From a virus: 22,027 nt of DNA. The position numbers were made by a program, and so were the translations under genes. Each line of letters opens with the position of its first letter. Within the stretch, counting starts at the first letter, position 1. The notes beneath the pieces were generated by a model. That model did not search any database. It saw only the letters and a program-made list of their open reading frames with translations, and was not told the DNA's origin. Shown piece by piece: positions 11 through 2,981 of the stretch. The stretch covers positions 1 through 22,027 of IMG/VR virus record IMGVR_UViG_3300006100_000091; one strand, 5' to 3'.

Positions 11-331
11 ATGAGAGTATGGAAAAAAATCTATATTCCATATTATACCCCTGAGCCTGAGCGCGAATTTAAGCGCAAAGACGGAACAACCATGACGGGC
101 AAGGAATTTAAAAAAATCCGGCGCACGTTTGGTTTATCGCAAGAAGCTATGGGTAGAACTTTAGCAGTGCCTCCGGCGCGTTATTCTCGCAGGTGCGTAG
201 CTTATTGGGAAGATGGTAAAAACAAAATCCCGCCCGCTGTAGAATTGCTCATGCTGATTTTTAGAGAGCGATTTGTTTTAATCCCCTCCAAAACTAAACA
301 TCGCTTCACCCGGACGGATGTAAGTCCTTAA
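11..331 (+). CDS. Helix-turn-helix (XRE-like) DNA-binding protein
   Basis: A 106-residue protein that I read as a small transcriptional regulator. Residues about 31-85 have the form of an XRE-type helix-turn-helix: a KEFKKIRR lead helix, the turn FGLSQEAMG, and a later helix with VAYWEDGKNKIPP, the phrase that follows the recognition helix in many antitoxin-type and phage HTH proteins. The N-terminal 28 residues are basic and aromatic. Only ten bases precede the ATG in the window and no ribosome binding site is visible there; the true start may lie further left, or at Met28. It is convergent with the helicase gene and overlaps its 3' end by 54 bases, so residues about 90-106 are read antisense to the helicase tail. 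The regulated target is not visible. The DNA-binding role is fairly safe, the exact family is not. Confidence 0.7.
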   Translation: MRVWKKIYIPYYTPEPEREFKRKDGTTMTGKEFKKIRRTFGLSQEAMGRTLAVPPARYSRRCVAYWEDGKNKIPPAVELLMLIFRERFVLIPSKTKHRFTRTDVSP

Positions 332-1765
332 TTCCTTGTTATAATTCAAAGTATAATCCCCTGCCTGTCCTATGAAATAATCATCACGGGATTTTTGCAC
401 CCTTATCAAAGTTTCACCCTCTTTCGGCCTATGCACAACTATTCCTAGATCAGGCTTGTTGCTCCAGTGTGCAGAATCAGCAATGTCATAAAGCGTTGGT
501 ATTCCATCGTTATATTTATCTTTCCGTTTCATTTTTGAAGGGTGGGCGACAATCATCATGTGAACATTGTATTTGCGGGCAAATTTTTTTAGCTGCCTTA
601 TTGCAAAGCCCGTATATTCTGTTTGTGTCATCGGCCCCCTATCGTGTTCCATCTCATTCCAAGGATCGACGACAAACATATCCACCCCATGCCTTACAGC
701 AGCAGCAGCCATTTTTTCGAGCAACCAGCCTAAAGTTACCTCGTCATCAATATTAGGCACAATAAACCTGAACTTTTCATCCATCCATTTATCAGCGTGA
801 GCAATCTCATCCGGCTGGGCAAGTTTAGGCCGCATTCCTAGAATCAATGTTCTTAGATTGTGCTTATGGTGCGTCTGGGGCGTTTGTTCAAAACTGGCAA
901 AAGCAACCCTCCAGTTTGAATTTTTAGCAATGTCATAAGTGATAAAATTGATAAACGTGGTTTTACCATGCGAAGGAATACCCGTGACCACCGAAAAATC
1001 GGCTTTGCGTATGTTAATCGGTATCACGTCAAGTTTGTGGTACTCCTGAGGAGGTAAAGGAGCTAATTCACTCATTTTGTAAACGCCACTTACTTCCACC
1101 CACTCCGCTGCTGCAATCGTTTCTAAAACTAAATCCCTTCCACCCTTAAGATAAACTTCGTTCAAGTCTTTCGTTCCTGCCGGGTATTTTACCCATAAAC
1201 AACGGTGCTTTCCTAACCTTAGCGATAGATCATGCAACAGGTTTGCACCTGCCTTGTCACCGTCAGCACAAATCACTATTTCACCATTTGCGGGGAAACC
1301 ATCCAAATAAGAGTATTTAACGCTGTCAGCACCTACCCTACTGGAGGGTGCTCCATCTGGCACTGAGCAGGCAAAAAAACCGCATTGTAGGGCTATTAAA
1401 CAATCCATCTCCCCCTCAGTGATGATTAAACGGCTATTAGGGGAGTTTTGCCAGTCGGTGATTGCGTTTTGATTGTAAAAACACTTAACCGCATCTTTTT
1501 GTTGAGTAAATTGCTTTTCGCCAGACAAAGTGCGAAATTTGCTGTTGACGTGTTCTTCGCCAATAAAGAAAGGAATTTCAATACATTCACCACCTGTAAG
1601 TTGACTTGAACTTCTCCACCCAAGCCGCGTTGCTAGTTCGAGGTCTATTCCCCTGTTCTCTAGCAATTCCGCTGCTTTCTGAGTGAGAACCCCCGCTGTA
1701 TCCGCAGTGGTGGCAGTTGAAAATGAAGCTTTGTCCATCGAGGGTGACTGAGAGGCATCGGTCAT
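278..1765 (-). CDS. Phage primase-helicase, Toprim plus RecA-like helicase (T7 gp4 type)
   Basis: A 495-residue replication protein expected to prime and unwind DNA at the phage fork. The Toprim fold spans about residues 110-200: the conserved glutamate is E117 in ITEGEMD and the acidic pair is D168/D170 in ADGDKAG. Residues about 250-495 are a DnaB/Twinkle-like helicase with Walker A GIPSHGKT at 262-269 and a Walker B-like strand ending in VVDPWNEME near 360. The sequence from V26 (VLTQKAAELLENRGI) is the linker that normally follows a primase zinc ribbon; the first 25 residues are low-complexity and read the zinc-ribbon codons out of frame. The start is supported by AAGGAG eight bases before the ATG, inside the upstream ORF. 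This resembles T7, where a full-length and a short helicase-only form are made from one region. The zinc ribbon lies in the overlapping ORF in another frame. Confidence 0.9.
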   Translation of the reverse strand: MTDASQSPSMDKASFSTATTADTAGVLTQKAAELLENRGIDLELATRLGWRSSSQLTGGECIEIPFFIGEEHVNSKFRTLSGEKQFTQQKDAVKCFYNQNAITDWQNSPNSRLIITEGEMDCLIALQCGFFACSVPDGAPSSRVGADSVKYSYLDGFPANGEIVICADGDKAGANLLHDLSLRLGKHRCLWVKYPAGTKDLNEVYLKGGRDLVLETIAAAEWVEVSGVYKMSELAPLPPQEYHKLDVIPINIRKADFSVVTGIPSHGKTTFINFITYDIAKNSNWRVAFASFEQTPQTHHKHNLRTLILGMRPKLAQPDEIAHADKWMDEKFRFIVPNIDDEVTLGWLLEKMAAAAVRHGVDMFVVDPWNEMEHDRGPMTQTEYTGFAIRQLKKFARKYNVHMMIVAHPSKMKRKDKYNDGIPTLYDIADSAHWSNKPDLGIVVHRPKEGETLIRVQKSRDDYFIGQAGDYTLNYNKELRTYIRPGEAMFSFGGD

Positions 1766-1862
1766 TTTTGTTTCTCCTTGTGTGAGAGCATTTAGGGCAA
1801 ATTGTTTTGTTATTTCCTTGCCTTAGGTTAAAAGTAATTCCAAAATCTGATGGTTTTTTCAT
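1587..1862 (-). CDS. Primase zinc-ribbon domain ORF, out of frame with the helicase
   Basis: A 91-residue ORF with the zinc-binding module of a T7 gp4-like primase: CPKC near residues 19-22 and CHHCGYSGG near 47-55, with the extra cysteine RCLSV between. This module recognises the priming trinucleotide. I start it at the ATG at 1862, which overlaps the stop of the upstream DUF6291 gene as ATGA, rather than at 1928, which would add 22 residues without family character. After CGYSGG the frame runs on for about 36 residues that look unrelated to primases. The expected continuation (VLTQKAAELLENRGI) is in the +1 frame in the helicase ORF. Either the domain is a separate short protein, or a +1 slip at the G run 1690-1694 gives a fused product of about 527 residues, or the read has one extra G. 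Confidence 0.75.
   Translation of the reverse strand: MKKPSDFGITFNLRQGNNKTICPKCSHTRRNKNDRCLSVTLDGQSFIFNCHHCGYSGGSHSESSGIAREQGNRPRTSNAAWVEKFKSTYRW
1688..1697 (-). other. Candidate +1 frameshift site joining zinc ribbon to helicase
   Basis: On the minus strand the zinc-ribbon frame reads AGC GGG GGT T. A ribosome slipping one base forward on the run of five G would next read GTT CTC ACT, giving CGYSG followed by VLTQKAAELL, a natural junction for this protein family. Removing one G from the run (1690-1694) would have the same effect, so a homopolymer error in the sequence is the main alternative. I see no in-frame stop or rare codon at the site that would force slippage. Confidence 0.45.
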
Positions 1863-2494
1863 AACAGATAACTCGGTGATTGATTGCGTTTTTTCTTGAT
1901 AAAGTCTATCGTTCTTTCCCAACCCCACCGCCTAAAAGCTATGTCAAAATGCTCGTATTTGTAATTGTATTGGGCGCAAGCTAAACGAAATTCCTCAATG
2001 AGAATTGGCAGATCACTAACTGCAATGCCATATTTTTTGCAAACTGATGTCAGGTCGTGGGTTTCTAATTTTCCCCTTTTCAATTCCCACTCCGTAAGAG
2101 TCATCTTCTTACTACTACCTTTATTAATTTTTTCTTTCTTACTTCCTTTATCATTATCATTATCATTATCACTATCACTATGGGCATGTTTTGGTACAAT
2201 CTGGTACCCACTGGTACCCACTGGATGCGACTGGATGCGACTGGTAATTTCTTCTTTCCACCTACTTAACGCATTGTTTTTATTTCTTTTGCATATTGCA
2301 TCATACCTTTCGCAATCCCTGTCCATCTGATTTTTGAAGTTGATAAACAAAGCCTTTAGTACACCAGAAAGTTGCACATTTCCGGTTTCATTGTACAATT
2401 TAATTGCTTTGAAAAGTTGCCCAGCTTGCGCGTCATCAAGTTCATCAAGAGCGCTTAATGAATCGACATAAAGAATAAATGATTTTTTGGTCAT
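1859..2494 (-). CDS. DUF6291-like phage replication protein
   Basis: A 211-residue protein placed directly before the primase-helicase. Residues 1-70 (KKSFILYVDSLSAL, then DELDDAQAGQLFKAI) match the N-terminal DUF6291 type found in phage replication modules. A charged linker at about 90-130 contains SDSDNDNDND and lysine-rich stretches. The C-terminal part (about 132-211) is helical, with aromatic FDIAFRRWGWER, and could contact DNA or the helicase. By position it corresponds to the initiator or helicase-loader slot of other phages, which is inference. The start has AAGGGAAAG just upstream. It overlaps the zinc-ribbon ORF by four bases (ATGA). The gene carries two repeat arrays, one out of codon phase, which suggest that the replication origin lies inside it. 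Confidence 0.75.
   Translation of the reverse strand: MTKKSFILYVDSLSALDELDDAQAGQLFKAIKLYNETGNVQLSGVLKALFINFKNQMDRDCERYDAICKRNKNNALSRWKEEITSRIQSHPVGTSGYQIVPKHAHSDSDNDNDNDKGSKKEKINKGSSKKMTLTEWELKRGKLETHDLTSVCKKYGIAVSDLPILIEEFRLACAQYNYKYEHFDIAFRRWGWERTIDFIKKKRNQSPSYLL
2148..2183. repeat. TTATCA hexamer array, AT-rich
   Basis: Four perfect TTATCA units (2148-2171) are followed by CTATCA and a degenerate CTATGG. The period is two codons and encodes the alternating D/N/S stretch in the linker of the DUF6291 protein. Upstream, 2113-2150, is a pyrimidine-rich and T-rich run. The block lies beside the 10-bp iterons and is what one would expect of a DNA-unwinding element, but it could be simple low-complexity coding DNA. 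Confidence 0.7.
2191..2250. repeat. Six 10-bp iteron-like repeats inside the replication gene
   Basis: Six consecutive decamers start with YTGG: TTGGTACAAT, CTGGTACCCA twice, CTGGATGCGA twice, and CTGGTAATTT. The middle four form two perfect tandem pairs. The period of 10 is not a multiple of three, so the encoded peptide (ITSRIQSHPVGTSGYQIVPK) is not repetitive; the repetition belongs to the DNA. About one turn per unit puts all sites on one helix face. Iterons inside an initiator gene next to an AT-rich tract are the layout of the lambda origin in gene O. I therefore read this as a probable origin; binding by the encoded protein is inference. Confidence 0.7.
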
Positions 2495-2696: not shown

Positions 2697-2981
2697 TTAA
2701 TACGGCAAACAGCGTATAATATCAGCAACTTTTTCTAATAATTCATCCTCTGACCAGTATTTTTGTTGCCATGCTTTGCGTCCTAAAGTGTGGATACCTT
2801 CACGGCCTTGATGGTGAAAGTGACACAAGGGAAGAACTTTCAATTCGTTTTTACGTCCTCCGGCCCCTGTTTTAGCGTGATGTACGCTAGCAGGGGTACG
2901 TTCGCCCATTTTTAGCAAACAAACGATACAGCCTATGTCCCTGACTAATGCCTGATGCTTTTTTTCTGCAACAGTCACCAT
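2697..2981 (-). CDS. HNH nuclease, Ref-like
   Basis: A 94-residue nuclease of the compact HNH/Ref type. Visible features are the zinc-like pair GCIVC (residues about 17-21), the HNH core SVHHAKTG (about 32-39), then LPLCHFHHQGREGIH (about 49-63) and the terminal helix YWSEDELLEKVADII. This order (CxxC, HH, CxxHH, GxxGxH) is that of the P1 Ref family and its many phage relatives, which cut DNA in recombination-dependent settings. It overlaps the end of the VRR-NUC gene by seven bases. Together the two make a nuclease pair beside the replication genes, probably for processing recombination or replication intermediates. A Ref-like role is family inference; the HNH call is strong. Confidence 0.85.
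   Translation of the reverse strand: MVTVAEKKHQALVRDIGCIVCLLKMGERTPASVHHAKTGAGGRKNELKVLPLCHFHHQGREGIHTLGRKAWQQKYWSEDELLEKVADIIRCLPY

Follow-up and report, generated by a model that had tools for sequence, protein, structure and literature searches.

Evidence for a conserved, overlapping pair of zinc-ribbon and primase-helicase genes with two translation starts in a phage lineage

The two genes and their products

The stretch of DNA analysed here (the window) is the IMG/VR record IMGVR_UViG_3300006100_000091, 22,027 bases long. On its minus strand a small zinc-ribbon ORF runs into a larger gene for a Toprim primase-helicase. The features needed for the following are:

278..1765, minus strand: T7 gp4B-like Toprim primase-helicase of 495 aa with a start codon of its own (ATG at 1765)
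1587..1862, minus strand: zinc-ribbon ORF, 91 aa, ATG at 1862-1860, with the motifs CPKC and CHHC
1587..1765, minus strand: dual-coded overlap of the ribbon and helicase genes, 179 nt
1676..1687, minus strand: place of the usual helicase start of most relatives, in which the ATG lies 16-25 nt past the last Cys codon
1690..1694, minus strand: run of five G, the proposed slip site (AGC GGG GGT T at 1697-1688); not conserved
1704..1799, minus strand: zinc ribbon proper, first to last cysteine codon
1774..1779, minus strand: putative ribosome-binding site AAGGAG, within the ribbon codons T-R-R, 8 nt 5' of the ATG at 1765
1859..1862, minus strand: ATGA stop-start overlap of the ribbon gene with the upstream DUF6291 gene, read from the sequence
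2494-1859, minus strand: DUF6291 gene (Pfam, E 4e-20)

The first-pass annotation had described the ribbon and the Toprim-helicase as lying in different frames that overlap by about 180 bases, with AAGGAG eight nucleotides before the helicase ATG inside the ribbon codons; the overlap measures 179 nt, and the coordinates are confirmed. The helicase frame is +1 relative to the ribbon frame, and the ribbon codons from 1765 on also encode the helicase N-terminal leader. Beyond its last cysteine the ribbon protein carries a tail of about 38 aa with the C-terminal end ...AWVEKFKSTYRW. No start codon is present in the window at 1676..1687, where most relatives have theirs. Translation of the ribbon gene probably starts by coupling to the upstream gene through the ATGA, and the helicase probably initiates independently at the ATG at 1765, from the AAGGAG in the ribbon arginine codons. 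Two further observations were made upstream: a short ATTATC/ACTATC repeat run (2150-2200, minus strand) corresponds to a SDSDNDNDNDKGS linker within the DUF6291 gene, and 2697-2981 (minus strand) encodes a small HNH-type protein akin to the RecA-dependent nuclease Ref (Pfam RecA_dep_nuc, E 1.5e-8).

The helicase protein matches the DNA primase/helicase family phrog_239 (E 4e-70). Its Toprim domain (Toprim_2, E 1e-6) has the EGE and DxD motifs, E117-G-E119 and D168-x-D170 being invariant in the alignments, and its RecA/DnaB-type domain (DnaB_C, E 2.5e-12) has a Walker A motif whose residues G262, G267 and K268 are likewise invariant. The earlier suggestion that the short product resembles T7 4B is borne out both by profile comparison with T7 gp4 (E 1e-23), in which the alignment begins at residue 77 of full gp4 and at residue 15 of the short construct, and by the predicted fold (Foldseek E 1.6e-23). 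In the predicted structure residues 1-23 are disordered, and the first helix and the fold begin at residue 29, which is the place where the relatives start.

As to the ribbon protein, C22, C25, C50 and C53 form two CxxC pairs that are invariant among 24 members, and the commonest match of these members is the DNA primase family phrog_47 (10/24, best E 2.7e-8). Profile comparison of the ribbon protein with solved structures returned weak unrelated matches only, and a low-confidence prediction places a helix at the end of its tail (residues 78-88). The ribbon lies in another frame from the helicase and has its own stop, as it does in 107 relatives, instead of belonging to the same polypeptide as in a 4A form; therefore, the helicase is filed as 4B-like only. 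As judged from their sequences, the ribbon and the Toprim-helicase together correspond to a single T7 gp4-like primase-helicase.

Gene 4 of T7 (gp4A, 63 kDa; gp4B, 56 kDa) shows the same order of ribbon, Toprim and RecA-type helicase, and its short form, also ribbon-less, starts near the same boundary as the window helicase. Both gp4 forms are made in T7 from two starts in one frame, one form being priming-competent and the other priming-deficient. The long form of T7 therefore includes the ribbon; in the window, the ribbon is encoded out of frame as a protein by itself, and no fused form is needed. According to PMC9198812, citing Bernstein and Richardson (1988), the ribbon region of T7 is needed for priming and not for unwinding. 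The mitochondrial helicase Twinkle belongs, by profile and fold, to the same helicase family as the window's; human Twinkle is described in PMC9860392 as having lost primase activity. Unlike in Twinkle, a ribbon gene is kept here beside the helicase.

Split and fused relatives

Scans of viral and bacterial contigs, together with a few annotated records, yielded 210 helicase loci, 172 of which form a non-redundant set (<85% identity). This set comprises 107 loci with a +1 split, 51 fused genes, 11 loci in which no ribbon was found and 3 scored with another offset (+2); two of the latter (L200 and L201) are +1 splits whose frame break comes later, while L151 is a true non-+1 arrangement. The division noticed in the first pass is therefore real, since the same +1 split in 107/172 relatives is far beyond chance. 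In a FastTree phylogeny of 166 helicases, one change suffices to separate split from fused loci. The constant +1 offset is thus inherited from one event and needs no mechanism of its own. Fused phage primase-helicases (phrog_239; L005, L006, L008, L131) contain the same domains and are the closest outgroup on the tree, but they consist of one open frame with a ribbon-helicase linker, and show neither an excess of +1 starts nor dual coding.

A sequencing or assembly error, or a decayed gene, could be suspected from the homopolymer run at the junction and from the existence of fused relatives. However, the identical split and offset recur in 107/172 non-redundant relatives, the splits are confined to one side of one tree branch, and both frames are under selection (see below), so that error or decay retains a negligible probability; sequence error in particular is ruled out by the relatives that share the split at the +1 offset. 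The first pass had taken fused relatives as a sign of such an error: they do exist, but they form the other side of one tree branch, and the test was consequently too simple. Two other IMG/VR records are identical to the window over 6.8 kb, G5 included, although they could share one sample and are by themselves no proof of correctness.

Some relatives depart from these layouts. In the fused relative L007 the frame is broken at about 3360, inside the helicase soon after the RG motif; in contrast to the family split, this break probably reflects decay or an error in the sequence. Three helicases of the split clade from Reyranella-type genomes (L097, L099, L100) have no ribbon gene within 2.3-3 kb upstream, possibly through loss of the ribbon. 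A ribbon gene elsewhere was found in neither of two of these genomes, and the third gave one weak ribbon match inside a 327-codon open frame.

Coding in the overlap and the helicase start

The ribbon tail was evaluated by synonymous recoding of the helicase, which predicts how often the ribbon frame would stay open; the sequences are related, and a divergence-filtered subset was added. In 104/104 split loci, as compared to 45.6 expected, no stop interrupts the ribbon frame over at least 32 codons after the last Cys. The excess holds for helicase genes below 50% GC (15/15 open, 2.5 expected), for representatives below 50% identity (27/27, 10.7 expected) and for codons -9 to +15 around the helicase RG motif (95/96, 45.4 expected). 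On the other hand, the controls, namely four downstream stretches, the third frame and all equivalent tests in fused genes, are at or near expectation. Both frames of the overlap are thus constrained, as in a dual-coding pair. Since the ribbon frame is open beyond expectation only within the overlap, selection acts on the ribbon protein as a product that has its own C-terminus. With the ribbon frame kept open past the last Cys in all split loci and the controls at expectation, the locus is very probably, on these sequence comparisons, a conserved overlapping dual-coded gene pair with two translation starts rather than a single gene that a frameshift divides. The first gene would encode a zinc-ribbon protein that stands alone and ends in a basic, aromatic tail, and the second, with a +1 start inside the first, a T7 4B-like Toprim primase-helicase devoid of the ribbon.

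The position of the second start is well defined in the family. In most split loci the distance from the last cysteine to a helicase-frame ATG is fixed (mode 19-25 nt); such an ATG within 30 nt or less is found in 75/104 split loci versus 11/50 fused genes (Fisher 4e-9), and the other two frames have no such excess. Counting ATG, GTG or TTG 4-46 nt past the last cysteine, a start is found in 97/104 split loci. The usual ATG is missing from 20/104, most of which have GTG or TTG there or an ATG higher in the ribbon; L030, L067 and L105 have no clear helicase start. The ribosome-binding site of most relatives is written in the glycine-rich codons of the ribbon, and its predicted strength in split loci is -6.77 kcal/mol versus -5.99 in synonymous recodings (p 0.0014); at the equivalent place in fused genes the strength falls below the synonymous null. 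In six loci the +1 frame is interrupted by a stop codon after the last Cys and before the ATG. The strong internal helicase start claimed in the first pass therefore stands, start codons and ribosome-binding sites being conserved in the relatives, and the downstream gene appears to possess a start codon and a ribosome-binding site of its own, as the second member of an overlapping pair would.

Other variants were seen at this place. L067 and L105 have a CTG exactly at the position of the relatives' helicase ATG and no other standard start nearby, and CTG initiation is possible in these two loci. In L151 a TAATG, in which stop and start share one base, lies just after the ribbon; it is the only relative seen with this stop-start pair instead of the long +1 overlap. 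In L029 (2142-4533) the ribbon is separated by an HNH endonuclease ORF from the helicase, which has an ATG of its own. This HNH/AP2-type ORF carries, in the same frame, a copy of the helicase N-terminus (MLNPKAIDFLESRAIEAE...) and so appears to have captured the helicase start site; the helicase itself has another, second N-terminus.

Together with L136, L137 and L138, three relatives with 50-55% helicase identity to it, the window makes up a single supported clade, which is nested within the loci that have the usual start. None of the four clade members has this start; each carries an ATG that corresponds to the one at 1765 (-62/-65), within the (N/H/D)-D codons of the ribbon. Upstream of it lie AAGGAG (window), AAGGAG (L136, again with 8 nt spacing), AAGAAAG (L137, a weak ribosome-binding site) and AAGGAA (L138); L096 has GGAG with 8 nt before its helicase start. 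In most relatives the helicase start lies some 84 nt further downstream, just past the last cysteine; in the window's clade it has most likely shifted upstream, to within the ribbon. The null used for this clade keeps the ribbon protein and draws synonymous codons over the +1 frame from the ATG to the last cysteine. The probability that the frame stays open is 0.14, 0.16, 0.55 and 0.23 for the window, L136, L137 and L138, respectively. The +1 frame upstream of the proposed slip site is open in 4/4 members versus 1.1 expected, which is modest evidence, the members being related. The null is calibrated, since the same test on loci with the usual start gives 42 open frames observed versus 40.5 expected.

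Frameshifting and the role of the ribbon protein

A +1 step at AGC GGG GGT T would yield a fusion of 527 aa, and the first-pass annotation had proposed that a +1 frameshift joins the two parts. Under this explanation, programmed frameshifting at GGG-G (1694-1690) would produce a 4A-like protein of 527 residues and the internal start the 4B-like form. An offset that is nearly always +1 would fit, as would the domain order after the join, which is the natural one of the family, the identical GGG-G of L004 shortly past its last Cys codon, and the lack of the usual helicase start in the window. However, a single ancestral split accounts for the constant offset, and the slip site is not conserved: GGG-G is found in 20/104 split loci and is absent from the other 84 and from the three closest relatives, whose counterparts are GGC-G (L136), GGA-G (L137) and GGA-C (L138), so that comparison of the G run among relatives speaks against the proposal. 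In addition, no conserved stop or other slippery codon was seen at the site, the ribbon frame is kept open far past it, and the window's clade keeps the +1 frame open upstream of it, which frameshifting does not need. Neither L029, with its intervening HNH gene, nor L151, with its TAATG, can use the proposed shift. Programmed frameshifting is thus a highly improbable origin of the two products. Frameshifting and internal initiation (coupling and recoding) can coexist (PMC3711429), and a low-level fusion product may accompany the two starts.

The locus is reminiscent of the GeneTack 'translational coupling' clusters (PMC3711429), in which adjacent frames may be mistaken for a frameshift while the downstream gene starts by itself, as here. 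Those clusters are recognised by a stop and a start within 10-20 nt (PMC3711429); in the present family, unlike in them, the dual-coded ribbon frame continues across the helicase start for at least 99 nt after the last cysteine. PMC3711429 does not mention primase or helicase, and in the open-access literature we found no paper describing phage primase-helicases whose ribbon is split off or out of frame. The family may serve as a warning case: a constant +1 offset across relatives resembled recoding, and one inherited overlapping start explains the offset.

The ribbon protein probably acts in trans with the T7 4B-like primase-helicase: it would provide template recognition for the primase, perhaps docked through its tail, and the ratio of helicase to primase-competent complexes would be set by two independent translation rates, in analogy with T7 4A/4B. 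Alternatively, the overlap could be real and the ribbon protein an independent regulator or DNA-binding protein rather than the missing domain of the primase. The tail, which is more basic and more aromatic than the synonymous null, the weak library matches of the ribbon and the Reyranella-type helicases without a ribbon gene nearby are compatible with such a role. It is nevertheless unlikely, as the ribbon matches the fused N-terminal ribbon of close relatives in order and motif, and its members match DNA primase families with E values down to 2.7e-8. A more specific form of the trans-acting ribbon, to which we give about even chances, is that this phage lineage, which includes relatives in alphaproteobacterial genomes, runs a two-subunit T7-type primase, in which a detachable ribbon serves as specificity subunit in trans on a ribbon-less helicase hexamer, its docking tail being written in the codons of the helicase N-terminus. 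If so, primer-site choice and dosage would be controlled independently of the helicase.

The textbook example of a fused primase-helicase is T7 gp4, and here a lineage of more than 100 phages has cut such a protein once at the ribbon boundary. The overlapping dual-coded halves offer a natural test of ribbon action in trans and of the balance between helicase and primase dose. The small ribbon gene is easily missed, and such helicases would then seem ribbon-less. This is the case in Bradyrhizobium phage BDU-MI-1 (L130, KY940711.1), the one cultured phage found with this layout: its ribbon ORF, which begins at about 2380 in the gap before the annotated primase/helicase, is unannotated.
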